A stretch of 64,000 nucleotides of DNA, taken from assembly GCF_001306145.1 (NCBI RefSeq), contig NZ_LGKO01000002.1, positions 930,001 to 994,000 of the forward strand. The letters are read 5' to 3'. The position numbers were made by a program, and so were the translations under genes. Shown one piece after another: positions 40,907 to 56,432 of this stretch. The notes beneath the pieces were generated by a model. The model worked only from the letters and a program-made list of their open reading frames with translations. It ran no database searches and had not been told where the DNA came from. Numbering within the stretch: the first letter of the stretch is position 1; each line of letters starts with the position of its first letter. The stretch is from Thermanaerothrix daxensis (GTDB lineage Bacteria > Chloroflexota > Anaerolineae > Anaerolineales > Anaerolineaceae).

Positions 40907-42142
40907 ATGAGCGAGTTTTTGACACTTTTATCCCCTCAGGAGGCGCTGAAGCGCTGGTTGAATGCTCTCCCTGAGGTTGAGCCAGAGGGAGAAGAAATCT
41001 CGACCTTGGAAGCCTTGGGACGGGTTACTGCAGAGCCGATCCGGGCGCCGGAGCCCATGCCATTGTTCCCTCGCAGTACGGTGGATGGGTATGCAGTGCG
41101 AGCCGCTGATACCTTCGGGGCAAGCGACAGCCTGCCGGCTTATCTGACCCTGGTGGGGGAAATTGGAATGGGAAGAGCCCCTGAATTTACGTTACAACCC
41201 GGGCAGGCGGCTTTGATTTATACTGGTGGGATGTTACCTGAGGGAGCAGATGCGGTTGTAATGTTGGAACATACTCAGACGACGATGCCGGGTGAGATTG
41301 AGGTCCTGCGTCCGGTGGGAGTGGGAGAAAACGTGCTCAAGGTTGGGGAAGACGTTCAGATAGAGGATGAGGTCATTCCGGCAGGAGTGCGCTTGCGCCC
41401 TCCTGAAATAGGAGGGCTAATGGGGCTGGGGATTACAAAATTGCGTGTAGTAAAAAAACCGCGCGTCGGGATTGTGTCCAGTGGAGATGAGGTCATCCCT
41501 CCTGAACAACCCCTTCGGCCTGGTCAAGTTCGCGATATCAACAGTTACTCCCTGAGTGCGTTGGTGGAGGTAGAAGGCGGCCTTCCGCAACGCTACGGCA
41601 TTGTGCCGGATCGCGAAGATGCGTTGCGAGAAGTAATCGGGCGAGCCTTAGAAGAGAATGATATGATCATTGTCTCGGCAGGGTCTTCCATCGGCACGCG
41701 AGATTTGACTGCGCGGGTCATTAATGAGATGGGGCTTCCTGGTGTGCTGGTCCATGGGATCAACATACGGCCAGGGAAACCCACCATTCTGGCGGTTTGT
41801 AACGGAAAGCCCATCCTGGGACTTTCGGGCAACCCGGTGAGTGCGCTGGTGGTGGCTCAAATCTTTTTGCCCCCCGTTTTAGAGCACTTACTTGGGCTCA
41901 CGCTCAAGCGTCCGCGCGCACGCTTACAAGCCTGTCTTACCCTCAATGTGCCATCGCAGGCTGGACGGGAAGACTATGTTCCTGTGCGGCTGATCGAGAG
42001 CGCAAAGGGGCTATTGGCAGAACCCATCTTTTATAAGAGCAACCTGATCTTCTCGCTGGTGCGCGCGGATGGGTTGTTACGTATTCCCGCAGATGCGACG
42101 GGTCTGGCGTCTGGTGCAGAGGTTGAGGTATGGCTTTTATGA
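40907..42142 (+). CDS. moeA: Molybdopterin molybdenumtransferase
   Basis: 411 aa, the usual MoeA length. It inserts molybdate into adenylylated molybdopterin. Visible signatures: RSTVDGYAVRAADTFG, YTGGMLPEGADAVVMLEHT, RPGQVRDINSYSLSALVE and SAGSSIGTRDLTARVINEMG, and the C-terminal GLSGNPVSALVVAQIFL. Begins 3 bases after the UbiA-like gene and forms a pair with a second MoeA-type gene 32 bases downstream. Confidence 0.95.
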   Translation: MSEFLTLLSPQEALKRWLNALPEVEPEGEEISTLEALGRVTAEPIRAPEPMPLFPRSTVDGYAVRAADTFGASDSLPAYLTLVGEIGMGRAPEFTLQPGQAALIYTGGMLPEGADAVVMLEHTQTTMPGEIEVLRPVGVGENVLKVGEDVQIEDEVIPAGVRLRPPEIGGLMGLGITKLRVVKKPRVGIVSSGDEVIPPEQPLRPGQVRDINSYSLSALVEVEGGLPQRYGIVPDREDALREVIGRALEENDMIIVSAGSSIGTRDLTARVINEMGLPGVLVHGINIRPGKPTILAVCNGKPILGLSGNPVSALVVAQIFLPPVLEHLLGLTLKRPRARLQACLTLNVPSQAGREDYVPVRLIESAKGLLAEPIFYKSNLIFSLVRADGLLRIPADATGLASGAEVEVWLL

Positions 42143-42174
42143 TGTAGATCAGATCGAGAGTGGAGGAAGGGGCG

Positions 42175-44145
42175 ATGTCGGTGTACCTGCATGATATCCC
42201 TATGACGGAGGCGCAACGCCGCATTCGCGAGGCACTCCAGGAAGCCGGCTTGTGGCAGGTGTTGGGAATAGAAACCTTACCCCTAAGCGAGGCTCTGGTG
42301 GGGCGAGTGACTGCCGAGCCGGTATGGGCCCGTCTCTCTTCACCCCACTACCACTCCGCAGCCATGGATGGGTTCGCTCTTCGAGCCGAAGATACAGATG
42401 GGGCCATGCCGACGGCTCCGGTGACTTTGTTGGTTGGCTCCCATGCTGCCTATGTGGATACGGGGGATGTATTGCCGGAATGGGCTAACGCGGTGGTGCC
42501 CATTGAGAATGTAGAGGCGCTGGATCAAAACGGGCGGCCTGCGGATGACCCGCGCCATCCTTATATGATTCGATTGAGAGCGGCCTTACCCCCATGGACC
42601 CATGTTCGCCCAATGGGGGAGGATATCGTGGCGACTCAACTCGTTCTCCCAGCAGGTCATGTCTTGCGCCCGGTGGATCTGGGAGCCATCGCAGCATGCG
42701 GATATACCGATATAGCCGTAACGCGCAAGCCTCGTGTTGCCATTCTCCCGACGGGGGATGAATTGGTGCCAATTGGAACGCCGGTTAAACCCGGGGATAT
42801 CATCGAATTCAACTCACTGGTATTGGCTGCACAAGTGGCATCATGGGGGGGTGAACCGATTCGTTATCCCATCACTCCTGATGACGAGAACTTAATCCTG
42901 GAACGTGTTCGCGAAGCGGCGCAGGAGAGTGATCTGATTCTCCTGAATGCGGGCTCCTCGGCTGGTTCAGAGGATTATTCTGCTCGTGTAATCGAGCGCT
43001 TGGGAGAATTAATCTTTCATGGTGTGGCTGTTCGGCCCGGGCATCCGGTTATCTTTGGTATGATCGGACGTCCTGGCGAATCAGCCGGGGCCAAAGTGCC
43101 CATTTTGGGAGTTCCGGGTTATCCGGTTTCCGCAGCGCTTACCGGGGAAATCTTTGTCGAACCCTTAATAGCCCTTTGGACCGGACGACCTGCTACTCAA
43201 CCTGAAGAAGTTGAGGCTGTCCTCACTCGTAAAATCACTTCCCCAGCCGGAGATGAAGATTATGTGCGCGTCGTCATTGGGGAAGTCGGAGGCCGGACGG
43301 TGGCAGCACCATTGGCTCGTGGTGCGGGAGTGATCACCTCGCTGGTACGTGCGGATGGTATCCTGGTGATACCCTCGGGAATTCAAGGAATCGAAGCAGG
43401 GGAAAAGGTGCGTGTACGACTGTACACCTCCAGCCGTGTGTTGAATCGCACCATCTTCGCAATCGGTTCACATGATATGTCATTGGATCTCCTGGCGCAG
43501 TTTTTAGCAGAGCGGGGGCTGCGCCTGGTGTCGGCAAATGTGGGAAGCCTGGGTGGGTTGATCGCTTTGCGAAGGGGCGAGGCTCATCTTGCTGGTTCAC
43601 ATTTGCTGGATCCGGAAACGGGGGTTTATAACCTGCGTTATGTGCGGCAATATTTGCCCAATGAAGCGGTCATGATCGTGCGGTGGGTGGGACGCGAGCA
43701 AGGGTTAATTGTGCGGCCTGGAAACCCCAAAGGCATTAAGGGCCTGGAGGACCTGGTGCGTTCAGATGTGATGTTCGTCAATCGCCAACGCGGGGCTGGT
43801 ACGCGTGTTCTACTGGATTACCATCTCGGCCGTTTAGGGATCAACTCCGAAGCCATTCGGGGCTACCAACAGGAGGAGTATACCCACCTGGCTGTGGCCG
43901 CGGCAGTGGCTTCGGGACGCGCGGATTGCGGTTTGGGGGTGACGGCCGCTGCTAAGGCACTGGGACTGGATTTTGTCCCGCTTTTCCAGGAGGCCTATGA
44001 CCTGATCATTCCCTGCAAATATCTTGAAGATGAGCGCATTAAACCCGTTTTTGATTTAATGCACGAGCCACGTTTTCGCCAGGCTGTGGCTCAGTTACCA
44101 GGTTATGACGTTGGACAAATGGGGATCGTTGTCCAGGGGTGCTGA
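42175..44145 (+). CDS. MoeA fused to a periplasmic-binding-protein-like domain
   Basis: 656 aa from ATG 42175, set by GGAGGAAGG just upstream (a GTG at 42160 overlaps that site). Residues 1-420 are MoeA-like (YHSAAMDGFALRAEDTDG, PTGDELVPIG, LLNAGSSAGSEDYSARVIERLGE, LGVPGYPVSAALTGEIFVEP). From about 430 the chain resembles a solute-binding-protein-like domain: IGSHDMSLDLLAQFLAERG, RRGEAHLAGSHLLDPETGVYN, FVNRQRGAGTRVLLDYHLGRLG and ASGRADCGLGVTAAAKALGLDFVPLFQEAYDL. Such fusions are known in bacteria and are thought to sense or bind molybdate or the cofactor, though this is not settled. It follows the single-domain MoeA, so the two may act as a heteromeric pair. Confidence 0.92.
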   Translation: MSVYLHDIPMTEAQRRIREALQEAGLWQVLGIETLPLSEALVGRVTAEPVWARLSSPHYHSAAMDGFALRAEDTDGAMPTAPVTLLVGSHAAYVDTGDVLPEWANAVVPIENVEALDQNGRPADDPRHPYMIRLRAALPPWTHVRPMGEDIVATQLVLPAGHVLRPVDLGAIAACGYTDIAVTRKPRVAILPTGDELVPIGTPVKPGDIIEFNSLVLAAQVASWGGEPIRYPITPDDENLILERVREAAQESDLILLNAGSSAGSEDYSARVIERLGELIFHGVAVRPGHPVIFGMIGRPGESAGAKVPILGVPGYPVSAALTGEIFVEPLIALWTGRPATQPEEVEAVLTRKITSPAGDEDYVRVVIGEVGGRTVAAPLARGAGVITSLVRADGILVIPSGIQGIEAGEKVRVRLYTSSRVLNRTIFAIGSHDMSLDLLAQFLAERGLRLVSANVGSLGGLIALRRGEAHLAGSHLLDPETGVYNLRYVRQYLPNEAVMIVRWVGREQGLIVRPGNPKGIKGLEDLVRSDVMFVNRQRGAGTRVLLDYHLGRLGINSEAIRGYQQEEYTHLAVAAAVASGRADCGLGVTAAAKALGLDFVPLFQEAYDLIIPCKYLEDERIKPVFDLMHEPRFRQAVAQLPGYDVGQMGIVVQGC

Positions 44146-44743: not shown

Positions 44744-45220
44744 TTAACCGGCTGCCTCTGGCTGACAAATTTCCAGTTGTGAACGCCAGGCGTGCATCTC
44801 GCGCAGGATTTGCTGAGGTCCTTGGCTTGCCAGTTTTTCGAGGGTTAGACTCTGCAGAGCCCTGTTGATGGCATCTTGAAGACTAGCCCACACGGGCAGA
44901 TAGACACAGGTCTCGCGATGAGGGCAAGCGTTGGCGCTTTCCAGACATGGGGAGAGGTGGATTGGCCCTTCTAGGGCTTCCATAATTTCGCGCAAATTGA
45001 TGGAATCTGGAGAGCGATTCAGGCGAATGCCACCGCGTGGTCCGGGAATTGTTTTGATCAAACCCTTTTGCATCAGCGTGTGCGCAATTTGGTGCATGAA
45101 AGGTAGGGGAATATCCAGATTGCGAGAGAGGACTGCCGTTGCAATGGGATGATCACCCGTCTTTGCCAATGCCAGCATAATTTGTAACCCATAATCGAAG
45201 CGTCGGCTAATTTTTAGCAT
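44744..45220 (-). CDS. Rrf2-family transcriptional regulator with three cysteines
   Basis: 158 aa from ATG 45220 (MLKISRRFDYGLQ). Winged helix with IAHTLMQKGLIKTIPGPRGGIRLNRSPDSINLREIMEALEG is the Rrf2 hallmark. C92, C99 and C105 (SPCLESANACPHRETC) match the positions that bind [2Fe-2S] clusters in IscR, NsrR and related regulators, so it is probably an iron-sulfur, redox or NO sensor. It is divergent from a cytochrome c gene and next to a peroxiredoxin, which suggests control of respiratory or oxidative-stress genes. A longer frame upstream to 45268 has no support. Confidence 0.9.
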   Translation of the reverse strand: MLKISRRFDYGLQIMLALAKTGDHPIATAVLSRNLDIPLPFMHQIAHTLMQKGLIKTIPGPRGGIRLNRSPDSINLREIMEALEGPIHLSPCLESANACPHRETCVYLPVWASLQDAINRALQSLTLEKLASQGPQQILREMHAWRSQLEICQPEAAG

Positions 45221-45395
45221 GTCTAATCCTCTAATGTAAGGTTTTAATTTTGCAGGATTCTTTATCAAAATAGTATGTTTTATCCATTTTGTATAGTGAT
45301 GAATTCACATTTCTCTGATGAGGAAACTCTTAATCATGATGAAGGTTGATTCAAAATTCACCCGGTTCTCATCTCTCTCTCATTTAGAGACGGGA

Positions 45396-45401: not shown

Positions 45402-45447
45402 CAAGGTGAATGTACGTGAATTTGTTCATTTGTCCAAAGGAGGACGT

Positions 45448-45876
45448 ATGAAAAAACTGGGAATTCTGTGGATTGTGTTGGTGCTCGGTGTGTTTGCTCT
45501 ATCCGCGTGTGGTGGTGGCGGAGGGGAGGCTAAAGAAACGCGCCCTACACCCCCGCCCGAATATGCCGGGAAGACGAACCCCTATACTACGAGCGATGCC
45601 AATGTGGTAGCAGCCGGTAAAACCATTTATGACCAGCGCTGTGCTTCCTGCCACGGTGAGAGAGGTCTTGGAGATGGGCCGGCGGGGCAAGCGTTGGACC
45701 CACATCCCGGCAATCTGGTCGAACTGGTCAAGGTAGCGAAAGACGATTATATCTTCTGGCGCATTTCTGAAGGTGGTGCCATGGCACCTTTCAATTCTTC
45801 GATGCCGGCTCAGAAAGGGATATTGACCGAGGACGAAATTTGGCAAGTTGTCACTTACATTAAGACCTTCAAGTAG
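45448..45876 (+). CDS. Lipoprotein cytochrome c (class I, mono-heme)
   Basis: 142 aa. Signal peptide with lipobox LSAC gives a lipid anchor at C21, followed by a Gly-rich spacer. One heme c site, CASCHGERGLGDG (C65, C68, H69); probable axial Met is M119 in NSSMPAQKG (M112 less likely). ATG 45448 follows AAAGGAGGAC. The size and fold match a small membrane-anchored electron carrier. Its position directly ahead of the two-component and cox genes suggests that it feeds the caa3 oxidase, or carries electrons for a partner regulated with it. Confidence 0.93.
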   Translation: MKKLGILWIVLVLGVFALSACGGGGGEAKETRPTPPPEYAGKTNPYTTSDANVVAAGKTIYDQRCASCHGERGLGDGPAGQALDPHPGNLVELVKVAKDDYIFWRISEGGAMAPFNSSMPAQKGILTEDEIWQVVTYIKTFK

Positions 45877-45979: not shown

Positions 45980-47800
45980 ATGGCAAATCAAGTAATAAGG
46001 ACATCAATTGTCCGATTTTGCAAAAGATTGCAAAATGCCCTTTTGTTAGTTGGAGTTTTCCTTTCCGGTTTAGGGGTGGCTGGTCTGGCTAACGGAAGCG
46101 GCATGGCTGTTGCCTGGTTGATTGGGGGGATAGGTCTATGTGTATTGGGAGTATGGGGAAGGTGGCCTCGAAAACGTGAAAAAGAGGTGTGGGAATCAGT
46201 GGAGGGGGCTAAAGACGTAGCTCTTGAAGGCATTGGTGATAATGTTCTTTGGCAAGATCTCTCGGATCTTCTTGATACGAACGATGAGGAAGGGCTGATT
46301 CGTAAGGCTCTTGAGAAGGCCGTCGCCTTTAGTGGGGCTAGCGGTGCCACTTTTATCCCTTTAGATGAATGGAACCAACCTTTACGAGTTTATGCGGCTG
46401 GCGAGGAAACGATGGTGGCCAGCGAGGGTTGGGAGAAGAGTTTGGCTCAGCCCAAGGTTCGTCTTTCCTGTAAACAATGTCAGGTTTATCGGGCGGTCGT
46501 AGGTCAGGGATGTTCTCTTTTCCAGGGTGGTATATCAGAGGCAAAAGTGGTAGAGTGTCTTCCCCTAAAGTACCGTGGCCGTACGGTTGTTGTTGTAAAC
46601 TTCTTTTCAACGCAGCCTGATTTTAGGCTTGGGGAAGAAATTCGGCATGCATTAGAGAACTTCTTCTCGGTTATACTGGTGGGATTGGAGCTGTACCGTC
46701 TGAAGGGACGGGAAACCGCTATCTACTCCCAAGTATTAGGGAGTCGTGTAAGACACCCTGACCTGGACAGCACACTTAGACCCCTCGTATGGCGGTTAAT
46801 GCGGGTTTCGGGGTGTGAAGGCGCAGCGCTATACCTCCCTAAAAACGAAATCAGGATGTTGCCCACTTTTCTCACCGTGGGACATTTCCCATTGACTGAG
46901 CCTGAAGGCGCTCGAGAGGTTTGGAGCCGGGTCCTCAGAGCCGCTCAAGCCTGGCCCGAGCGGCCTCAGTACATCCCTCTCGAACCCGATGGTACACAAG
47001 GCTGGGTGTTTCGCCTTGTATCCTCCCAAAGTGGGGATTTGGGAGTGCTGATGCTTTATGGACCGGACTCTTCTTTGCAGGGGGAGGCTGCACTTGAAAG
47101 GCTGGGTTTGTTACTGGATGCTCTGGTATATGTGATTGAAACTGAGCAGATGAATTTTGATCTGGCTTATCGAGCAGTCATGCAAGAGCGGCTGCGTCTG
47201 GCGCGTGAAATTCACGATGGCCTGGCCCAAACGCTGGCTTATCTGAAATTGAACGCGGCGCAGATGATCCAGCTGCTTAATCAGGAGAAGCACGCGCGCT
47301 TAGAAACTTTGCTTCATCAACACTATCAAGCGCTCTCCGAGATTTATTTGGAGACACGCCAGGTAATGGATAACTTACGTTTTAGCCCGCAGGAGGATAT
47401 GAATGCCTGGATTCGCCAGGTGGCAGCCAATGTGGCAGAAGGTGCAGACTTGCAGATCGAATGTATTCTCCCTGAGAAGGCTCCTGATCTTCCTCTGGAG
47501 GTACAGGCTCAGATTCTACGTATTATCCAAGAAGCCTTAAATAACATTCGTAAACACGCTCATGCTTCCAGGGCGTGGATTTCACTGAGTTCCTGGAATC
47601 GAGACTGGGTTTTGGAAATTGGCGATAATGGAGTTGGTTTTTCTCCTGAGGATGTGCCGCAATTCTCTCAACACGGATTGCGAGGAATGCGCGAACGCGC
47701 TGAGTTGATTGGGGCCGAATTCCAGGTCATCAGCCGGCCTTATCAAGGCACGATTATCCGTTTACAGGTACCATTTCGGATTGAGGAGTCGCTGGTATGA
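45980..47800 (+). CDS. Sensor histidine kinase, NarL-system (HisKA_3) type
   Basis: 606 aa. Two hydrophobic segments at about 17-37 and 41-59 anchor a protein that is otherwise cytoplasmic. Two GAF-like domains follow (about 90-235 and 250-385). The first contains four cysteines, C164, C167, C178 and C193, that could hold a metal or Fe-S cluster. The kinase core has the dimerisation box LAREIHDGLAQTLAYLKLNAA with phospho-acceptor H412 (as in NarX/NreB/DegS), then EALNNIRKHAHASR (N box) and DNGVGFSPEDV, GLRGMRERAELIGAEF. It is coupled by ATGA to its response regulator. No ribosome site precedes ATG 45980 and the -10-like TAAAAT at 45968 is close, so the transcript may be leaderless. Confidence 0.93.
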   Translation: MANQVIRTSIVRFCKRLQNALLLVGVFLSGLGVAGLANGSGMAVAWLIGGIGLCVLGVWGRWPRKREKEVWESVEGAKDVALEGIGDNVLWQDLSDLLDTNDEEGLIRKALEKAVAFSGASGATFIPLDEWNQPLRVYAAGEETMVASEGWEKSLAQPKVRLSCKQCQVYRAVVGQGCSLFQGGISEAKVVECLPLKYRGRTVVVVNFFSTQPDFRLGEEIRHALENFFSVILVGLELYRLKGRETAIYSQVLGSRVRHPDLDSTLRPLVWRLMRVSGCEGAALYLPKNEIRMLPTFLTVGHFPLTEPEGAREVWSRVLRAAQAWPERPQYIPLEPDGTQGWVFRLVSSQSGDLGVLMLYGPDSSLQGEAALERLGLLLDALVYVIETEQMNFDLAYRAVMQERLRLAREIHDGLAQTLAYLKLNAAQMIQLLNQEKHARLETLLHQHYQALSEIYLETRQVMDNLRFSPQEDMNAWIRQVAANVAEGADLQIECILPEKAPDLPLEVQAQILRIIQEALNNIRKHAHASRAWISLSSWNRDWVLEIGDNGVGFSPEDVPQFSQHGLRGMRERAELIGAEFQVISRPYQGTIIRLQVPFRIEESLV

Positions 47801-48453
47801 GTACACGTGTCGTACGAGTTGTGGTTGTGGATGATCATGCACTGTTTCGGCGCGGCTTAATCGAGTTGCTTCGAGATATGCCCGAAATACAGGTTGTTGG
47901 TGAGGCCTCCAACGGTCAGGAGGCCTTGGATGTAGTGCGTCGCACAGCCCCTGATGTGGTGTTGCTGGATATAAACATGCCTTCCATGGATGGACTGCAA
48001 ACGCTGGAAGCGCTACGTAAATGGATTTCTTCCCCCAGGGTGTTGATGCTGACGGTCTCACAGCAGGAGGCAGACCTCATGCAAGCCATTCGGAGTGGCG
48101 CGGATGGTTACCTCCTCAAAAACGTAGAGCCTGAGGAACTTCGCAAAGCCATTCTGCGAGTTTATCAGGGCGAAGGAGCTCTTTCCCCAGAAGTTACAGC
48201 GCCGGTGTTGCGTGCTTTGGCCTACCAGTCCGAAATGGCAAATCGGCAACTCCTCAGTGATCGGGAATTAGAGGTGCTCGAATGTTTGGCGGATGGAAAG
48301 ACTACCGGGCAGATTGCGGCAAAATTGTATATTTCTGATAACACGGTAAAAACCCACGTCCGCCATATTCTGGAAAAACTGGAAGCTTCTAACCGCACTG
48401 AAGCGGTGAGCAAGGCAATTGCTTTGGGGTTGATTCGCCGTCGAGACTCTTAA
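47797..48453 (+). CDS. Response regulator, NarL/FixJ family
   Basis: 218 aa. Receiver with D12-D13 (VVVDDHALF), phospho-acceptor D58 (VVLLDINMPSMDG), T86 and K108 (GYLLKNVEP), then a LuxR-type helix-turn-helix (LLSDRELEVLECLADGKTTGQIAAKLYISDNTVKTHVRHIL). It pairs with the histidine kinase (ATGA overlap) and is followed by a strong terminator and then the cox operon, so the cox promoter is the nearest likely target. Its receiver resembles the N-terminal domain of the downstream CoxB (compare VVVVDDHALFRRGLIELL with VLIASANPLFGRGLERLI). Confidence 0.94.
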   Translation: MSTRVVRVVVVDDHALFRRGLIELLRDMPEIQVVGEASNGQEALDVVRRTAPDVVLLDINMPSMDGLQTLEALRKWISSPRVLMLTVSQQEADLMQAIRSGADGYLLKNVEPEELRKAILRVYQGEGALSPEVTAPVLRALAYQSEMANRQLLSDRELEVLECLADGKTTGQIAAKLYISDNTVKTHVRHILEKLEASNRTEAVSKAIALGLIRRRDS

Positions 48454-48484
48454 ATCATCTCTAAAAGAAGTCCGGTGTGATACC

Positions 48485-48514
48485 AATATCCCCCTTCCAG
48501 GGGGATATTTTTAA
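48485..48514 (+). terminator. Intrinsic terminator after the two-component genes
   Basis: Perfect 10-bp stem AATATCCCCC/GGGGGATATT with a 5-base loop and a short T tract, 32 bases after the response regulator stop. It separates the two-component genes from the cox operon transcriptionally, although readthrough cannot be excluded. Confidence 0.85.
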
Positions 48515-48619: not shown

Positions 48620-50047
48620 ATGATGGGTTTCCAACAATTGGATGGGGTGCGTAGGGTGTTGATTGCTTCGGCCAACCCATTGTTCGGGCGCGGCTTGGAA
48701 CGGTTAATTCGCCAACAATGGCAGGGGCGGCGGTTCGAAATTCGAGTGGTCGGAACAATGGAAGAGACGCTGGCGCTTCTTGAATCCTGGTTACCCGATC
48801 TTGTCATTCTGGACTACGATGACCGCTCTCTGGATCGTAAGCGGTTCATGGACCTCTTTGTTAGTGGCAATCGTGCTATGCAGGTAATGTTGGTCTCTCT
48901 TCAGGAAAGCGGTTCAGTAGTCGTTTATGATCGCCGCGTCCTTACCCCCTCTCAGGCAGAAGATTGGCTTTCGCTATCAGAACCCTCGGGCTTCCAATCC
49001 CCATCCTCAGGAAAGGAGCAGTCATTCTCTATGAAGCACTTTGCTATTGCAGGCTCTATAGTGGTTGTATTGACCTTAGCCACCAATTATCTCTTGAACA
49101 CCATTCAAATTCTTCCTCTTCAGGCAAGTGTTCAAGCCCAGCCCATTGATCGGCTATTCAGCCTTCAGTTTATGCTGATTGCATTTTTCTTCTCCCTGAT
49201 CGTGGTTTTTATGGGATACAGCCTGATAGTCTTTCGTCAACGTGCCAAGGATGAAAGCGAAGAGGGAGCCTATATCAAGGGCTCCACCGGGCTCGAGGTG
49301 GTATGGACGATCATTCCCATTGGGATTGTCATCTATCTTTCCTATCTGGGGTCGCTTGCATTGGCTGAAACGCGGCGGGTGGACCCCCAGGCAGTTGAAG
49401 TCAAAGTGGTGGCAGGGCAATGGTTCTGGCGATTTGAGTACCCCCAGTATGGAATTACATCAGATACGTTGTATTTACCGGTAAATCGCCAGGCTCATTT
49501 ACGCTTAACCTCCCTGGATGTGATTCACTCATTTTGGGTGCCTGAGTTTCGTGTGAAGCAAGATGCTCTTCCGGGTGAGAACCTTGAGCGTGAATTACGG
49601 GTTACGCCAACCATGGTGGGTCAATTCAAGGTGCGCTGTGCGGAGTTGTGTGGTACTTCCCACGCCTATATGGAGAGCCCAGTTGTAGTGGTATCTCAGG
49701 CCGATTTTGAAACCTGGATTAGTGAGCAACTTCAGGCCATTGGGGCGGATCCTGCTACACGGGGTGCAAAGTGGGCTCAAACCAATGGCTGTCTTTCCTG
49801 CCACTCGGTGGATGGTTCCCCGGGCGTGGGGCCAACCTGGAAAGGCCTGTATGGCCTAACAGATCACGAACTGGCGGACGGCAGTCGGGTTGTCGTGGAT
49901 GAGGAGTACTTGAGAACGGCCATTGTTAACCCGAATGCTCAGGTGGTCAAAGGCTATCCGGCTAATGTGATGCCAGCAAATTACCAGGCGTTGCTCTCGG
50001 ACCAGCAGATCAACGACATTATTGAGTACATCAAGACGCTCCGCTGA
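48620..50047 (+). CDS. coxB: Cytochrome c oxidase subunit II (CuA and cytochrome c) with an N-terminal receiver-like domain
   Basis: 475 aa in one frame. Residues 11-118 read like a response-regulator receiver (RRVLIASANPLFGRGLERLI, LVILDYDDRSLD with D65 at the phospho-acceptor position), but the acidic pair is replaced by S-A and no conserved Lys is found, so it is a pseudo-receiver. A linker (119-137) follows. From M138 onward it is normal caa3-type CoxB: a signal-anchor helix (139-159), two membrane helices (about 178-206 and 223-249), a CuA cupredoxin domain with H303, C340, E342, C344, H348 and M351, and a C-terminal cytochrome c (C391, C394, H395, axial M451). AAAGGAG at 49012-49018 lies 12 bases before ATG 49031 (M138), so an internal start could make a conventional CoxB. 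First gene of the cox operon. Confidence 0.95.
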   Translation: MMGFQQLDGVRRVLIASANPLFGRGLERLIRQQWQGRRFEIRVVGTMEETLALLESWLPDLVILDYDDRSLDRKRFMDLFVSGNRAMQVMLVSLQESGSVVVYDRRVLTPSQAEDWLSLSEPSGFQSPSSGKEQSFSMKHFAIAGSIVVVLTLATNYLLNTIQILPLQASVQAQPIDRLFSLQFMLIAFFFSLIVVFMGYSLIVFRQRAKDESEEGAYIKGSTGLEVVWTIIPIGIVIYLSYLGSLALAETRRVDPQAVEVKVVAGQWFWRFEYPQYGITSDTLYLPVNRQAHLRLTSLDVIHSFWVPEFRVKQDALPGENLERELRVTPTMVGQFKVRCAELCGTSHAYMESPVVVVSQADFETWISEQLQAIGADPATRGAKWAQTNGCLSCHSVDGSPGVGPTWKGLYGLTDHELADGSRVVVDEEYLRTAIVNPNAQVVKGYPANVMPANYQALLSDQQINDIIEYIKTLR

Positions 50048-50073
50048 TTTCAACCCGTTGTGTGGAGGGTGCA

Positions 50074-51924
50074 ATGAAACGTTTATGGTCAATTGGTTTG
50101 GTGCGCGGCCTTGTCGGGCAGATTTTGGGTTTTCTGATCGGGATGGGTCTATTGAGTGCCGTGCGTGCTGTTATGGGTTTGCCCTGGAAGACCGAACCTG
50201 CCTGGGTAGCAGGGGCGTTTGGTGGGGTTTTGGGATTCATGGTGGCTTTGGGCGCCTTTAAAGATTGGTATGCGTGGGCGCTTGGGCGCGAGACTCCTGA
50301 TATCGAAGAGATTGAAGAAGAGCCGGGCTGGCGGCGCTATCTGAGCTACAGCCTGGATCATAAAGTGATTGGGGTTCAATACGGTGTGTTATCTCTGCTG
50401 TTGCTAGCCCTTGGTGGGAGCTTTGCGCTGATTTTTCGTGTTGAATTGGCCCGCTCGGGAATGCAGTTCCTCTCTTTGAACTTTTTCAATACCCTGATCG
50501 GGATGCACGGGATGGTGCTGATCATCTCAATCCTGTTGGGGTTTGCTGCTATGGCGAATTTCCTGGTACCGCTGTTGATCGGAGCCAGGGATATGGCCTT
50601 CCCACGCCTTAACGCTTTCTCGTTTTGGATTGCCGTTCCCGCTTCGATTACGCTATTAAGCGCTCTTTTTGTGGGTGGATTTGATACCGGGTGGACGGCT
50701 TACCCGCCGTTGAGCATTCGTGCTCCATTGGGCATGCAGATGTTTTTTGTGGGGGTGTTTTTTAACGGATGGTCGTCCATTCTGGGAGCCCTCAACCTGA
50801 TTACTACGATCATTCGATTGCGTGCTCCTGGAATGTCGTTGTTTCGCATGCCCATTTTTGCCTGGGCTACTCTGGCAACGTCCATTATTGCCCTTACGGC
50901 AACCCAATTGATCGGCCTTTCCTTCCAGATGGTAATGTTTGAGCGCCTGTTTGGCATGGGTTTCTTTGATCCGGCTAAGGGTGGAAATCCCATTCTTTTC
51001 CAACACCTCTTCTGGTTTTATTCACACCCTGCTGTATACATCTTTGTGCTGCCCGGTTTGGGTGTAATTAGTGAATTGTTGCCCGTTTTTGTGCGCAAGC
51101 CTTTGTTCGGCTATCGCTGGGTTGCTATGTCGTCGTTGGGAATTGCGCTGGTGGGCTTTCTGGTGTGGGGACATCATATGTTTACCTCGGGCATGGAAGA
51201 ATACCTGCGTGTGCCTTTCATGTATAGCACCTTGCTAGTGGCTGTTCCCACTGGGATCAAATTCTTCAGTTGGGTGGCAACCTTGTGGCAAGGACGCATT
51301 CGTACCCCTGTACCGATGCTTTTTGTCTTGGGTGCAATTGTGGTGTTTCTCATGGGCGGTCTCAGTGGTCCTCCCAATGGTGTGGTCGCTACCGATCTCC
51401 ATCTACACGATACGTATTTCGTGGTAGGTCACTTTCACGATACGATGTTCGGCGGCTATATCTTTCCCCTCTTCGCGGCCATCTATTACTGGTTTCCCAA
51501 GGTTAGCGGTCGGAGGTTAAATGAAACTTTGGGGCGGCTACATTTCTGGCTCATGACCCCTTCGTTCTTGGTAATGACCTTTGGGCAGATGTGGGTAGGG
51601 ATGATGGGGATGCGCCGCCGTATTGCCGATTATGATCCTGCCCAGGGATTTGATACGGCCCATCTAATCATCACCATCGCTGGCTTTCTCATTGGGTTAT
51701 CAGTGCTGATTTTCTTCATCAATCTGATAATGAGTTTGCGTCGTGGGGAGGTTGCGGTGGGTAATATCTGGCAATCGCGCTCGCCAGAATGGCAATTGCT
51801 GCCTTCCCCGGCCCCCATGCATAACTATCCTCAACCCTTCCGGGTGGTGGGGGAGCCCTATGATTACGGCTTGAAGGGATCGCGTTACGTGGAGCCGCTG
51901 ACCCAACCTGCGGGAGATGATTGA
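50074..51924 (+). CDS. coxA: Cytochrome c oxidase subunit I (A2-type heme-copper oxidase)
   Basis: 616 aa, ATG 50074 set by GTGGAGGG just upstream. About 90 N-terminal residues with two extra hydrophobic helices (about 9-34 and 44-62) precede the usual 12-helix core. Low-spin heme ligands H145 and H455, heme a3 ligand H453, CuB ligands H318, H367 and H368, and the crosslinked Y322 are present (WFYSHPAVY, GHHMF, GHFHDTMFGG). The helix VI Glu of A1 oxidases is replaced by YSHPAVY, the signature of A2-type (Thermus caa3-like) enzymes. K396 of the K channel is in place. The enzyme reduces O2 to water and pumps protons. Confidence 0.95.
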   Translation: MKRLWSIGLVRGLVGQILGFLIGMGLLSAVRAVMGLPWKTEPAWVAGAFGGVLGFMVALGAFKDWYAWALGRETPDIEEIEEEPGWRRYLSYSLDHKVIGVQYGVLSLLLLALGGSFALIFRVELARSGMQFLSLNFFNTLIGMHGMVLIISILLGFAAMANFLVPLLIGARDMAFPRLNAFSFWIAVPASITLLSALFVGGFDTGWTAYPPLSIRAPLGMQMFFVGVFFNGWSSILGALNLITTIIRLRAPGMSLFRMPIFAWATLATSIIALTATQLIGLSFQMVMFERLFGMGFFDPAKGGNPILFQHLFWFYSHPAVYIFVLPGLGVISELLPVFVRKPLFGYRWVAMSSLGIALVGFLVWGHHMFTSGMEEYLRVPFMYSTLLVAVPTGIKFFSWVATLWQGRIRTPVPMLFVLGAIVVFLMGGLSGPPNGVVATDLHLHDTYFVVGHFHDTMFGGYIFPLFAAIYYWFPKVSGRRLNETLGRLHFWLMTPSFLVMTFGQMWVGMMGMRRRIADYDPAQGFDTAHLIITIAGFLIGLSVLIFFINLIMSLRRGEVAVGNIWQSRSPEWQLLPSPAPMHNYPQPFRVVGEPYDYGLKGSRYVEPLTQPAGDD

Positions 51925-51947
51925 TGTCAAGAGCGGAGGAAAATGAG

Positions 51948-52157
51948 ATGCAATCTGTAAAAAAATCCACATCTGAAATACGGCGGGGCGTTTATGTGTT
52001 CATCTTTTTGGCGGTCTTGACGGTCCTGGAATATTACGTCGGCACTCATGAAGGACCTGCCGTTATCTTGTGGGCCATTGCATTGCTCAAAGCCGCGGTT
52101 GTAATTCAGTTTTACATGCACCTGATGCGTGTCTTTCGATCACGGGAGGAGCATTGA
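51948..52157 (+). CDS. coxD: Cytochrome c oxidase subunit IV
   Basis: 69 aa, too short to be obvious but well supported by position. I choose ATG 51948 because GGAGG lies 8 bases upstream; an earlier ATG at 51924 overlaps the coxA stop. Two hydrophobic helices (about 14-32 and 39-60) with the pattern of the prokaryotic subunit IV family (YVFIFLAVLTVLEYYVG and LLKAAVVIQFYMHL). It lies between coxA and coxC, as in caa3 operons, and its stop TGA shares one base with the coxC start. Confidence 0.88.
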   Translation: MQSVKKSTSEIRRGVYVFIFLAVLTVLEYYVGTHEGPAVILWAIALLKAAVVIQFYMHLMRVFRSREEH

Positions 52158-52726
52158 TGAGCGCTCATGAATTAAGTCTGGAAGCCTACCGGCAACGTGT
52201 TGCTACAAATCGCATTGGCTTGTGGTTGTTTATCGTCTCGGATGCCTTTATGTTTGGGGCTCTGCTGATTACGCGCTTCTACCTTCTAGGTGGGCGCCGG
52301 CCCGAACTGGACCAGGCATTGGGGCTAATCGTAACCTCGGTGCTGCTAACCAGCAGTTTCTTCATGAACCGGGCGGAGGCAATGATCGCCGCTGGAAATC
52401 GGCGCGGTTTTTTGACTAGTACGCTCATAACTATGCTTTTGGGGATTGCCTTCCTGGTGGGTGTGATTGGATTTGAGTGGCGTCTTGCACCTTTTGGTCC
52501 TGGAGATGGGGCCGAAGGCGCTGTCTTCTATATGATGACCGGTATGCATGCGTTCCATGTTTTGACAGGTGTGATTTTCCTCTTCATCGTTTTTCGCAAT
52601 GGCCTCAAGGGACATTATTCTCCTGAGCGCCATTGGGCAGTGGAAGCCTGTGCGAATTATTGGCACTTTGTAGATGTGGTTTGGATTTTCTTCTACCCTG
52701 CTCTCTACCTGATAGGAGTGCTTTAA
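52157..52726 (+). CDS. coxC: Cytochrome c oxidase subunit III
   Basis: 189 aa, the short prokaryotic form with five helices. Starts at ATG 52157, overlapping the previous stop (TGATG). Typical features: the N-terminal LWLFIVSDAFMFGALLITRFYLL (E of E-x-x-F-F replaced by D), the LTSSFFMNRAEAMIAAGNRRGF loop, MMTGMHAFHVLTGVIFL, and WHFVDVVWIFFYPALYL near the C terminus. Stabilises the proton entry side of subunit I. Belongs to the coxBADC cluster. Confidence 0.95.
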   Translation: MSAHELSLEAYRQRVATNRIGLWLFIVSDAFMFGALLITRFYLLGGRRPELDQALGLIVTSVLLTSSFFMNRAEAMIAAGNRRGFLTSTLITMLLGIAFLVGVIGFEWRLAPFGPGDGAEGAVFYMMTGMHAFHVLTGVIFLFIVFRNGLKGHYSPERHWAVEACANYWHFVDVVWIFFYPALYLIGVL

Positions 52727-52728
52727 CT

Positions 52729-53343
52729 GTGGGCATGCGGCAGTATGGGTTGTTGATCGGGACCGGAATTTTGGCGGGGGTGTTGCTCTTGAGCGGGTTG
52801 CTCTTCCCGTCGCGAACTCAATTCCGTGGTTCGTTGCTGGATCCGCCTCTTCCCGCACCCGATTTTTCCCTTGCTCAGGCCGATGGTACCCTCTTTACCC
52901 TGAGTGCCCAACGGGGCAAGATCGTCCTGCTTTTCTTTGGCTATACCTATTGTCCGGATGTGTGTCCTACAACGTTGGCTGATCTCAACGCCGCCCTGAA
53001 GCGGCTCGGCAGACAGAGCAAGAATATTCGGGTGGTTTTTATCTCCGTTGACCCCCGCCGTGATACCCCACAGCGCGCTCAATTTTATGCATCCGCCTTT
53101 AATCCCGGCTTTGTTGGTCTCTCAGGAGATGAAACAGAACTTCAACCTATCTGGCAGGCATATGGAGTTTATCGGCTTGTGCGTGATGAGGAGAGCCGTG
53201 GAAAGGATTACCTCGTGGATCATTCCGCACGAGTTTATCTGATAGACGCACAGGGGAATTTACGCCTGACCTATGCCTTTGGCACCCCGGTTGACGACCT
53301 GGTGAATGACTTGCGGTTGGTTTTACGGGACATTCGGCCATGA
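52729..53343 (+). CDS. SCO1/SenC-type copper chaperone
   Basis: 204 aa from GTG 52729, with AGGAG 10 bases upstream inside the coxC end; an ATG 6 bases later (52735) is the alternative. An N-terminal helix (about 8-25) anchors a thioredoxin-like domain outside. Copper ligands C75 and C79 (GYTYCPDVCPTTL) and H165 (LVDHSARVYLID) are all there. SCO proteins deliver copper to the CuA site of CoxB, and this gene lies downstream of coxC. Overlaps the next gene by 4 bases. Confidence 0.92.
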   Translation: MGMRQYGLLIGTGILAGVLLLSGLLFPSRTQFRGSLLDPPLPAPDFSLAQADGTLFTLSAQRGKIVLLFFGYTYCPDVCPTTLADLNAALKRLGRQSKNIRVVFISVDPRRDTPQRAQFYASAFNPGFVGLSGDETELQPIWQAYGVYRLVRDEESRGKDYLVDHSARVYLIDAQGNLRLTYAFGTPVDDLVNDLRLVLRDIRP

Positions 53344-53855
53344 GTGCGACAGCCAAAGCGGCGCTTATGCGCCTGGCGGTTACGTTTCTGATTGGGCTCT
53401 TGGTGGGCGTTCTGGTGGGGGAGGGAGCGTATTGGTTGCTGCGTGGCGAAAGCGAAAACGCCCCCCGCACCATAGAGATTGTCATTCCACCGGGTACGGC
53501 GGCCCAAATTGCGAAAGGTGGGGCGGGGCCGGTCCTTCCTCCCATGGTTTTTACCGAAGGGGATGTTTTGGTTGTGCGTAATGAGGATAATGTCAGTCAC
53601 CAACTTGGCCCCCTCTGGATTCCTCCGGGAAGCGCCGCCTCCCTTAACCTGGACCGTCCAAGCGCATATAGTATGGCTTGCTCGTTTCAATCTTCACAAA
53701 TTTTGGGGATAGATGTGCGTTCGCGCATCCGCCCGATAGATCGTTTTCAGGGTATTTTGGCAGTCTTGATCCCTACCTGGATGCTGTTGTGGGTTTATTC
53801 GCTGGTGGCGGTACCTCTGCCGGAAAACCCGGCTTCTCAATCACCTATGACATAG
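53340..53855 (+). CDS. Membrane-anchored cupredoxin-like protein lacking one copper ligand
   Basis: 171 aa. A first hydrophobic helix (about 9-27) and a second near the C terminus (about 136-158) flank an extracytoplasmic domain. In that domain NEDNVSHQLGPLWIPPGS and YSMACSFQSSQILGI line up with the ligand strands of single-copper cupredoxins: H87 and C114 are present, but the following His is a Gln (CSFQSSQ). The fold assignment is from pattern only. Overlaps sco by 4 bases and is 7 bases from surf1, so its role is probably in oxidase assembly or copper handling. Not a family I can name. Confidence 0.8.
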   Translation: MSATAKAALMRLAVTFLIGLLVGVLVGEGAYWLLRGESENAPRTIEIVIPPGTAAQIAKGGAGPVLPPMVFTEGDVLVVRNEDNVSHQLGPLWIPPGSAASLNLDRPSAYSMACSFQSSQILGIDVRSRIRPIDRFQGILAVLIPTWMLLWVYSLVAVPLPENPASQSPMT

Positions 53856-53862
53856 AGCACGT

Positions 53863-54654
53863 ATGAAAACGCGTGGATTTCTTCGCTGGGGTTTAACCAC
53901 CTTTCTGGTTGTGCTTGGTGTGGTTATCATGATCCGATTGGGATTCTGGCAGTTGGATCGGTTAGCGCAGCGGCGGGCTTTTAATGAGCGAGTGTTGACG
54001 GCTCAATCTCTGCCCCCTTTAAATCTCAACGAAGAACCATTGCCCATCGCCCAATTGCCAGACATGGAATATCGTGAAGTTCTCGTGATCGGAGAATATG
54101 ACCACGCAGATGAGGTTTTGTTGCGCAATCAGGTTTGGGAGGGGCGGCTCGGATTTCATTTATTGACGCCACTGCAAATACAGGGAACCTCCTGGGCAGT
54201 GCTTGTGGATCGCGGGTGGCTACCGTATGAGGAAGCCCAGCTTCCAGCGCGTTTGGCATATCAGGAGAGAGGGGTGGTATTGGTCAGAGGAGTCATTCGC
54301 CGCAGTCAAGAGCGTCCAGATTTTGGAGGTGTACCGGATCCAACTTTAGCACCTGGTCAATCGCATCTGGAGGCGTGGAATGTGGTCAACATTACACGCA
54401 TTCAGCAGCAAACCCGATTGCCCCTGCTGCCGGTTTATATTCAGCAAGCCCCTGACCCTGCCTGGCAGGGCTTACCCTACCGCACCTTACCAGAGGTGGA
54501 AATTAGTGAAGGGCCGCATTTGGGTTATGCCATTCAATGGTTTACCTTCGCCGCGATATTCGGATTGGGGTATCCGCTTTTTATCCGGCGACAGTTACAT
54601 AACAGCGCTAAGCAAGCCCGTGAGAGGAATCAGGAGGACGAGGAAGAAGGATGA
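53863..54654 (+). CDS. SURF1-family oxidase assembly protein
   Basis: 263 aa. Helices at the two ends (about 11-28 and 225-244) bracket a large periplasmic loop, the SURF1 topology. Conserved GFWQLDRLAQRRAFNERV after helix 1 and VDRGWLPYEEA and HLGYAIQWFTFAAIFGLGYP at the C terminus match the family, as does the EYREVLVIGEYDHADEVLLRNQV segment. SURF1 proteins help supply heme a to subunit I. Ends in a charged tail and overlaps ctaAB by ATGA. Confidence 0.93.
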   Translation: MKTRGFLRWGLTTFLVVLGVVIMIRLGFWQLDRLAQRRAFNERVLTAQSLPPLNLNEEPLPIAQLPDMEYREVLVIGEYDHADEVLLRNQVWEGRLGFHLLTPLQIQGTSWAVLVDRGWLPYEEAQLPARLAYQERGVVLVRGVIRRSQERPDFGGVPDPTLAPGQSHLEAWNVVNITRIQQQTRLPLLPVYIQQAPDPAWQGLPYRTLPEVEISEGPHLGYAIQWFTFAAIFGLGYPLFIRRQLHNSAKQARERNQEDEEEG

Positions 54655-56432
54655 AAAAACAGATTGGGCATTGGATTTATGGGATGGTCTTTGGTTTTCT
54701 GGTGCTGGCGGTTTACAGCGGGTATGTTGCCCGTTTTACTGAAGTCGGACAAGCGTGTGTTTCCCACTTGAGTTGCACGTTTATTCTTGGCCAACCTGCA
54801 ACTTGGCTGCCATGGGTGGCCCTAGCGCACCCCATTCTTTCATGGCTAGCGGCTGGTCTGGTAATCGGTTGGGGCGGTTGGCGACTCTCGGTTGGGCGGC
54901 AGGGTTTGTCCTCGTTTGAACGCTGGGGGTTAATTAGCGGCATCTTAATGCTGGCTCTTCAAGGTCTAGTAGGAGTCGTTCTTCACAAATCGGCCTGGAT
55001 GCCACCGAGGCTGTTGCACTTGGGGTTGGGATTAGCGGCTATGACCGCCCTGGGATTAAGCGCTCTCTCTACCCTGTCTGCCTTTCAGAACCCTATCGGT
55101 GGGAGCACCGGGTCGAATAAGCGCCTGGCTTTGCTGGGGTTAGGGGTTGTGGGGCTAACATTTGTGCTTATGGTAAGCGGTTTCGCTAATGGGTTGGATG
55201 AGGGAAGCCGGGCCTGTGGTGGATGGCCGTTGTGTGGTGGCTCCCTGGTGCTTGGCAACTGGGGGTGGAGCACGCTGATTCATCGGCTGATAAGCCTGCT
55301 GGTTCTGGTGGGGATGATGTATTTGATCATAAGAGTTTGGCGAGACTATGATGCCGATCCGCTGATTTTGCCTCTGGCCACGGCTGTTGGTGTGCTATTT
55401 ATAGGGCAAATTGGCGTCGGAGGATGGATGGTTGGACGGGGATATCCTGCCGACATGGTAGCATTGCACGCTCTTAACATTGTAGCCCTGTGGGGGGTGC
55501 TGATTGCCCTGGTCTATGGGTTGTGGACGCGTTCTCCGCGATCCGCTGAAAAGGGCTCTGATACAACGCCTTTGCGCGTGCGGCTTAGGGCCTACTTCCT
55601 TTTGAACAAACCGGTGATTGTGGCACTTCTTCTGGTCACAACTTACACTGGGATGGTGCTGGCGGCCAAAGGGATGCCCGACTTGCTCTTGACCTTCTGG
55701 ACGCTTCTGGGAGGTGCCCTGGCGGCTGGGGGAGCCAGTGCCATTAACCAATACATTGACCGTGACGTAGATCGTCGTATGCAGCGGACTGCCAGGCGCC
55801 CTATTCCTTCTGGCATTCTGACCCCGGCTCAAGGTCTGGCTTACGGGGTGGCGGCGTGTCTGGTTGCCTTCTTCCTTCTGGCTGGCAAGGTCAATTTGCT
55901 CAGCGCGTTGCTTGCACTGGCCGGAATGATCTACTACGTAGGAATTTATAGTCTATGGCTCAAACCCGCTACGACGCAGAATATTGTGATTGGGGGAGGT
56001 GCGGGGGCGATTCCGCCTTTGGTGGGTTGGGCGGCCGTCACGAATGACCTACAGGTGCCGGCTCTGTTTCTTTTCGCCATCATTTTCTTCTGGACACCCC
56101 CCCATTTCTGGGCTCTGGCGCTGGTGAGGCAGAAAGATTACGCTCGTGCTGGCATCCCGATGTTGCCAGTGGTACGAGGGGAAAAGGCGACCCGTTGGCA
56201 GATTTTTATATACACCCTGGAATTGGTTGCACTGACGTTACTGATGCCGCTTTTCAATCTGACCGGCCGTTTTTTCCTGGTCACGGCCATACTTCTAGGG
56301 GCATGGTTGATATATGCAGCCTGGCGGGTGCTGCACCTCCCTGGTCATCGCCCGGCCTATCAGATGTATCGCATCTCCAGCATGTACCTTGCGCTGGTCT
56401 TTCTAGCGCTGGTGGTAGATGTCCTAATCTGA
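54651..56432 (+). CDS. ctaAB: Fused heme A synthase and heme O synthase
   Basis: 593 aa. Residues 1-295 are CtaA/COX15: eight helices with the four His that hold heme b and heme o/a (H60, H123, H211, H273), and two cysteine pairs (C36/C42 and C189/C195) seen in the Cys-containing class. Residues 308-593 are CtaB/COX10, protoheme IX farnesyltransferase: LLNKPVIVALLLVTTYTGM, the Asp-rich NQYIDRDVDRRMQRT with N366, D370 and D374, then YSLWLKPATTQNIVIGG. The product converts heme B to O and O to A, with no hand-off between polypeptides. Last gene of the cox operon. Confidence 0.95.
   Translation: MKKQIGHWIYGMVFGFLVLAVYSGYVARFTEVGQACVSHLSCTFILGQPATWLPWVALAHPILSWLAAGLVIGWGGWRLSVGRQGLSSFERWGLISGILMLALQGLVGVVLHKSAWMPPRLLHLGLGLAAMTALGLSALSTLSAFQNPIGGSTGSNKRLALLGLGVVGLTFVLMVSGFANGLDEGSRACGGWPLCGGSLVLGNWGWSTLIHRLISLLVLVGMMYLIIRVWRDYDADPLILPLATAVGVLFIGQIGVGGWMVGRGYPADMVALHALNIVALWGVLIALVYGLWTRSPRSAEKGSDTTPLRVRLRAYFLLNKPVIVALLLVTTYTGMVLAAKGMPDLLLTFWTLLGGALAAGGASAINQYIDRDVDRRMQRTARRPIPSGILTPAQGLAYGVAACLVAFFLLAGKVNLLSALLALAGMIYYVGIYSLWLKPATTQNIVIGGGAGAIPPLVGWAAVTNDLQVPALFLFAIIFFWTPPHFWALALVRQKDYARAGIPMLPVVRGEKATRWQIFIYTLELVALTLLMPLFNLTGRFFLVTAILLGAWLIYAAWRVLHLPGHRPAYQMYRISSMYLALVFLALVVDVLI

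Follow-up and report, generated by a model that had tools for sequence, protein, structure and literature searches.

A receiver-derived domain fused to cytochrome c oxidase subunit II in Thermanaerothrix daxensis: a possible third component of a respiratory two-component system

Background

Cytochrome c oxidase subunit II (CoxB) has an N-terminal signal, two transmembrane (TM) helices, and periplasmic CuA and heme c domains. In the window, that is, the whole 64,000-nucleotide stretch of Thermanaerothrix daxensis DNA analysed here, a CoxB sequence shares one reading frame with an N-terminal domain resembling the receiver of a response regulator. An initial annotation suggested that this domain may be a built-in cytoplasmic docking or signalling module of the oxidase, which would interact with the histidine kinase (HK) or the response regulator (RR) encoded nearby. 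What a receiver-like domain might do at this place is the question raised by the locus. Pseudo-receivers inhibit kinases (ShkA and CikA), and one, CmrT, was proposed to act on a partner RR; their mode of action has been called a mystery (PMC12632262). Among open-licence papers, nothing relevant was found on a receiver-oxidase fusion or on an oxidase two-component system of Anaerolineae.

Results

A receiver-like domain precedes a complete CoxB

The features of the fused gene are as follows.

48620..50047, + strand: whole fused frame, pseudo-receiver plus linker plus CoxB (open reading frame)
48620..48973, + strand: pseudo-receiver domain, residues 1-118; receiver fold minus helix α4
48974..49030, + strand: Pro/Ser-rich linker, residues 119-137, open in frame; model confidence low
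49013..49018, + strand: internal Shine-Dalgarno sequence AAGGAG, 12 nt before the internal coxB start
49031..49138, + strand: signal-anchor helix (residues 138-161 in the full-length model) and candidate signal-peptidase site, V171-Q172-A173 / Q174
49031..50047, + strand: CoxB proper, caa3 type, residues 138-475; begins at the Met that is the start codon of split relatives

According to the open reading frame listing, the frame is open throughout and encodes 475 amino acids. The CoxB part matches COX2_TM (165-241), COX2 (282-357), and Cytochrom_C (380-474) in Pfam, and scores above the curated cut-off of the NCBIfam CoxB profile, TIGR02866. All ligands that the initial annotation had reported can be read in the sequence: those of CuA are the H of DVIHSFW together with CAELCGTSHAYM, and those of heme c lie in CLSCH, with the distal M in ANVMP. 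With a CuA domain, two TM helices, and a C-terminal cytochrome c complete with its ligands, the protein contains a complete caa3-type subunit II. An AlphaFold model of the full-length protein was of low confidence (pLDDT 68) and gave no information on where docking might take place.

The N-terminal domain is receiver-derived and lacks helix α4

The receiver homology read from the ~118 N-terminal residues is borne out by the family more than by the window sequence. On its own, the single window domain matched Pfam Response_reg weakly, at E 0.086 and below the Pfam cut-off, whereas 33 of the 37 members of the pseudo-receiver family matched this profile (PF00072), the best at 7e-9. Alignment of the domain profile with the RRs of the same cassettes (hhalign) gave a probability of 98.4% (E 9e-15), spanning β1 to β4. 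An AlphaFold2 model of the domain, with seven sequences as input, was arranged as β1-α1-β2-α2-β3-α3-β4-β5-α5 with a mean pLDDT of 80. The anticipated receiver fold was thus obtained, with one departure that the initial annotation had overlooked: β4 (88-93) passes straight into β5 (99-104), with no helix α4 between them. The Foldseek matches listed for this model are overwhelmingly receivers, as are those listed by VIA-align (Z up to 10.2, rmsd 2.3 over 84 residues), and the latter include complex I chain 8e9i_O at Z 9.2. The β4-β5 shortening is present throughout an alignment of 55 homologues, and the hhalign match likewise ends at β4. The domain is therefore a receiver-derived variant and not a canonical (βα)5 receiver, and it has lost the α4-β5-α5 face, which receivers commonly use for output and dimerization. 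The α1 motif of NarL-type regulators, PLFxxGLxxL, is retained, and α1 and the β5-α5 loop carry much of the conserved sequence of the domain.

The pocket is altered in a constant manner. Among 38 close homologues, including those of species without the HK, S17, A/S18, D65, D67, D68, S93, Y103, D104, and R105 are nearly invariant. The acceptor Asp (D65) is kept in 38/38; the places of the acidic pair are taken by S17-A/S18, that of the Thr by S93, and that of the Lys by D104/R105. The initial annotation had named D65, S17-A18, and the missing Lys (D104-R105) correctly, and its view that the domain is not normally phosphorylated agrees with the absence of the acidic pair and the Lys from all 38 sequences, which rules out an ordinary phosphorylatable receiver. 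Between the window and a congener, the dN/dS of the domain was 0.037, near the values of CoxB (0.026) and the RR (0.029) and below those of the HK (0.14) and the linker (0.17). Judged by this value and the near-invariant altered pocket, the domain is functional and repurposed, not decaying. An unused upstream frame is ruled out by the same dN/dS, the conserved pocket, and the existence of free-standing homologues.

So constant a pocket raises the question of whether the domain is a ligand or redox sensor, whose altered pocket binds a small molecule (quinone or metal) and reports the respiratory state to the HK or RR. The pseudo-receivers of CikA and KaiA do bind quinones (PMC12632262), and the near invariance of the pocket, which extends to the HK-less species, is what such a sensor might display. 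However, distant members differ in the pocket, often with H where close members have Y, and the conservation could be structural; we consider this reading quite improbable.

The domain lies between a two-component system and the oxidase operon

The surrounding features are as follows.

45448..45876, + strand: small c-type cytochrome lipoprotein, first gene of the cluster, here and in relatives (cytochrome c profile matches)
45980..47800, + strand: HK (Pfam: GAF, a second weak GAF, HisKA_3, HATPase)
47797..48453, + strand: NarL-type RR (Pfam Response_reg 3.9e-31, GerE 6.6e-21)
48475..48494, no strand: candidate operator GTGTGATACCAATATCCCCC, 2 mismatches from GGGTGAT-N6-ATCACCC
48489..48504, + strand: terminator-like hairpin behind the RR gene (pattern scan), overlapping the right half of the operator
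50062..56432, + strand: rest of the oxidase operon (CoxA, CoxC, Sco, a small protein, SURF1, CtaA/B; open reading frames, in an order common to relatives)

The lipoprotein frame opens at 45406, with 45448 as its likely start. In the large flanks of related loci, the gene order is a c-type cytochrome, the HK, the NarL-type RR, the pseudo-receiver, and the oxidase genes. The window RR has all five catalytic receiver residues (DDDTK). The HK contains two N-terminal TM helices followed by a GAF domain with C164-x2-C167-x10-C178-x14-C193; the four Cys are invariant in 15/15 close HKs, and a similar four-Cys pattern occurs in distant oxidase-linked HKs. Conserved Cys residues in the cytoplasmic PAS or GAF sensor of a kinase are a feature shared with NreB, AirS (PMC4601167), and CSK (PMC6949291), where such sensors are known to hold Fe-S clusters, and by this likeness the GAF domain probably binds an iron-sulphur cluster as well. 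The spacing differs: C-x2-C-x10-C-x14-C here versus C-x7-C-x-C-x17-C in AirS.

Divergent from the cytochrome-HK-RR cluster runs an Rrf2/IscR-type regulator gene (44744-45268, - strand), which scores above the TIGR00738 cut-off and encodes three Cys spaced C-x6-C-x5-C. Its product could act on the locus as a second sensor (Fe-S or NO). Farther upstream, 40907-44145 holds two adjoining MoeA-like genes, of which the second also encodes a periplasmic-binding-like domain at its C-terminus, as judged by eye.

A palindrome, GGGTGAT-N6-ATCACCC, lies between the RR and pseudo-receiver genes in nearly all close loci, ~100-150 bp upstream of the pseudo-receiver domain. In 844 kb of fetched loci searched with at most 1 mismatch, 31 palindromes were found, all just upstream of the pseudo-receiver gene; two of the 31 were scored inside the pseudo-receiver frame because that frame had been extended upstream. 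Close variants occur in some distant oxidase loci (L088, L092, L099, and L101), and no palindrome was found upstream of the nine coxB genes (9/9) without the cassette, two species of genus g8 among them. A search of ten genomes at 2 mismatches was too loose. The arms are kept in sequence, not just complementary, which favours a protein-binding site over a plain terminator. The palindrome often directly follows the RR stop codon, and T runs follow it in some species; it could possibly double as a terminator, and the number of terminator-like hairpins found by the pattern scan was not above chance. From its position and its loss together with the RR, described below, the palindrome appears to be a site bound by the RR. 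A second palindrome-like site with 2 mismatches, GGTTGATTCAAAATTCACCC, lies at 45344-45363, before the cytochrome gene; relatives have none at that place at 1 mismatch, and the site is therefore possibly due to chance.

The domain follows the regulator more closely than the oxidase

Within the taxonomic family, the domain occurs in 28/147 genomes. It is found in 24 of the 26 genomes with a close CoxA, while 116/147 have neither. Related species are among the genomes counted. At the level of the class, both fused (L054/L081, L058/L085, L059/L086, L067/L095) and free members (L055/L082, L060/L087) were found. A narrow profile run against 400 genomes of the phylum gave one weak match outside the class, a 258-aa frame of the length of an ordinary regulator; with no convincing member outside the class, a family spread throughout Chloroflexota is not supported. 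A broad profile (A4) caught ordinary NarL regulators and is uninformative on spread. In a tree of 130 columns, whose inner order is weak, a fully supported branch parts all pseudo-receivers from the RR receivers. The domain thus belongs to a monophyletic pseudo-receiver family, so far seen only in Anaerolineae.

Most members of the family are found with caa3 or other COX1-type oxidases and with Sco genes. A separate group, mostly with an HK and RR, precedes genes for a molybdopterin oxidoreductase, NrfD/Fe-S proteins, an FAD-dependent reductase, aldehyde ferredoxin oxidoreductase (AOR), or CO dehydrogenase (CODH). The steadiest partners of the domain are therefore the HK and RR, with the oxidase as one client among several. 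Because the domain is a separate gene in many relatives and the trio occurs at other respiratory operons, its ancestral partner is more likely to have been a two-component system than the oxidase. HK-RR-pseudo-receiver trios before non-oxidase operons were seen in L090, L096, L097, L102, L105, L108, L112, and L115; several of their HKs carry another Cys pattern, C-x2-C-x34-C-x2-C.

Genus g8 provides a natural experiment. The HK is absent from its cluster, and a search of the g8 genomes for a full-length HK orthologue found none, with only the kinase part matching other kinases. In 5/6 species, the RR is devoid of its second acidic residue (DN, DN, DN, DT, and DG). By comparison, DDDTK is kept in 51/58 of the cassette RRs examined, and the sole other deviation, outside g8, is a truncated read of the first residue. 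The pseudo-receiver pocket is retained in the HK-less g8 species. Two further g8 species, the two genomes with a close CoxA and no domain, have neither HK, RR, nor pseudo-receiver; their coxB comes immediately after the cytochrome gene, and they lack the palindrome as well. The pseudo-receiver thus goes with the RR and operator, and can persist where the HK has been lost. The tie to the adjoining HK and RR that the initial annotation had proposed is a strong one, with the same trio, an operator-like palindrome alongside, and joint loss with the RR. Its wider notion of a module built into the oxidase could apply to the fused genes of this clade, but not to the many relatives with a separate gene upstream of coxB or to the trios at other operons.

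That the domain persists where the HK has been lost and the RR has decayed also suits a different reading, namely that the pseudo-receiver is a structural or assembly subunit on the cytoplasmic side of CoxA/CoxB with no signalling role. The domain is fused to or closely coupled with CoxB, complex I chain 8e9i_O is among its structural matches (Z 9.2), and Rv3143/MSMEG_2064 on mycobacterial complex I sets a precedent (PMC9274095). On the other hand, relatives of the domain stand with an HK and RR before molybdopterin, FAD, AOR, and CODH operons with no oxidase nearby, oxidases without the domain are common, and where the RR is lost the domain goes with it and the oxidase is kept. This is the strongest rival to the reading preferred below, though in our estimate a doubtful one.

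The fusion is conserved and may yield more than one product

A search for the fusion in related Chloroflexota found it conserved: 21 of the 29 family copies are fused to coxB, and most of the remaining ones are encoded as a gene of their own immediately before it. When the two states, fused and split, are mapped on a CoxB tree, 7 changes are required, and supported branches force at least 4 of them. Some homologues do begin at the equivalent of M138, a finding the initial annotation would have held against a conserved fusion, but the domain is then usually a neighbouring gene.

Fused genes keep the Shine-Dalgarno sequence and start codon of coxB itself, on which grounds unfused CoxB is probably made besides the fused product. 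A Shine-Dalgarno sequence (at least 5 nt) precedes the CoxB Met in 12/14 tested fused genes, compared with 1.9 expected from synonymous resampling; among other internal Met codons, 2.5% have one. Because the species are related, the nominal P (6e-18) exaggerates the significance of this retention. The window's own sequence was not significant in the resampling test (0.23), because the window codons favour the motif. The fusion may account for a small share of the protein made, alongside CoxB translated from the internal start, or it may be cleaved. The first hydrophobic helix of both fused and split CoxB is followed by a small-x-small motif, mostly A/V/T/S/L-x-A/G/S, resembling the cleavage site of signal peptidase I. 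Cleavage there may part the pseudo-receiver from the oxidase and leave it as a membrane-tethered stub. Given the known topology of CoxB, the pseudo-receiver is cytoplasmic, cleaved or not; the cytoplasmic placement in the initial annotation, which had been tied to an uncleaved anchor helix, therefore stands.

An internal start of this kind would also be expected if the in-frame join were neutral, that is, if a stop codon had been lost without consequence, the two parts acted separately, and most CoxB came from the internal start. At least four switches between the fused and split states and a less-conserved linker (dN/dS 0.17) point the same way. On the contrary, the linkers of all 26 fused genes (26/26) are open and in frame at 12-39 residues despite their divergent sequences, many of them are rich in Pro/Ser/Gln and resemble real interdomain linkers, and fusion is found in nearly all domain-bearing members of the family, one genus excepted. 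We regard a neutral join as unlikely. The fusion suggests that the domain may be a physical part of a respiratory complex.

Discussion

The reading that we prefer, with a probability of about 0.45, is that the domain is the third component of an HK-NarL RR-pseudo-receiver system that controls respiratory operons in Anaerolineae, docking on the HK or RR, damping the signal, and being placed at the oxidase by its fusion to CoxB. In the NarL-family receiver of DesR, the elements that bind the HK are helix α1 and the β5-α5 loop (PMC5231405). A docking element is favoured because these two elements are kept, the phosphorylation chemistry and α4 are gone, and other pseudo-receivers set precedents. 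The HK would read the oxygen or redox state through its four-Cys GAF domain, probably by way of an iron-sulphur cluster, and the RR would bind the palindrome and govern how the pseudo-receiver/oxidase operon is transcribed. The first protein made from this operon, the pseudo-receiver, would dock through its NarL-like α1 face and β5-α5 loop on the RR or HK and damp the signal. Joined to CoxB, this feedback element would sit beside each oxidase on the cytoplasmic side of the membrane, or stay there as a cleaved, tethered stub, and the supply of oxidase would thereby limit its own expression. Docking on the HK cannot be the sole role, since the pseudo-receiver persists in six HK-less species. A bolder version, in which the CoxB pseudo-receiver directly binds the HK or RR of its own operon, the assembled oxidase acts as a signal transducer, and a general three-component system with an α4-less pseudo-receiver links the expression of several Anaerolineae respiratory enzymes to the enzymes themselves, is held only tentatively and seems doubtful to us.

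If the preferred reading is true, the locus contains a candidate feedback line from respiration to gene expression, and suggests that, across a bacterial class, the regulation of a respiratory enzyme may be tied to how much of it is present. The family also offers a natural series, with the domain free, fused to an oxidase, kept without the kinase, or lost with the regulator, plus a candidate operator, which makes the action of a pseudo-receiver testable.

Several known systems resemble this one in part. Pseudo-receivers and other atypical receivers (PF00072 relatives; PMC12632262, PMC4395418) share the receiver homology and fold and the loss of the acidic pair and Lys. In contrast, the present family has α4 deleted throughout, no output domain, and an invariant pocket of its own; it always lies near an HK/RR pair in its basal layout and is joined to an integral subunit of a respiratory enzyme. 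CmrRST of Clostridioides difficile likewise combines an HK, an intact RR, and a phosphorylation-incompetent receiver protein in one operon or cluster (PMC12632262). CmrT, however, is an OmpR-family regulator, whereas the third protein here lacks a DNA-binding domain and stands at the head of a respiratory operon. Free pseudo-receivers are mostly 110-170 aa with no HTH match, and the present system thus works like CmrRST without being a member of it. Rv3143/MSMEG_2064 is an effector-less receiver-type protein attached to a respiratory complex (PMC9274095; PDB 8e9i chain O), as the domain described here may also be. It is an orphan with a putative conserved phosphorylation Asp and sits on complex I, whereas the present pseudo-receiver comes with an HK-RR pair and would sit on a heme-copper oxidase.

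Two-component systems have other links with oxidases. PrrBA/RegBA is encoded beside a Sco protein (SenC/PrrC) and is tied to oxidase activity; neither a pseudo-receiver nor a fusion with an oxidase subunit is known from it.

Related architectures

Three further observations concern proteins of related loci. The RR of g8 (L045, L186-L190), with a metal-binding acid gone in 5/6 and the kinase gone, is apparently turning into a pseudo-receiver itself. A pseudo-receiver of the same family forms the N-terminal part of ~385-400-aa proteins at L098:1213-2361, L112:7837-9042, and L111:1450-2607. Finally, an 813-aa protein encoded at L109:7680-10118 joins cytochrome b, 4Fe-4S, FlpD-like, and cytochrome c domains, and its gene adjoins a COX1 oxidase and a pseudo-receiver trio.
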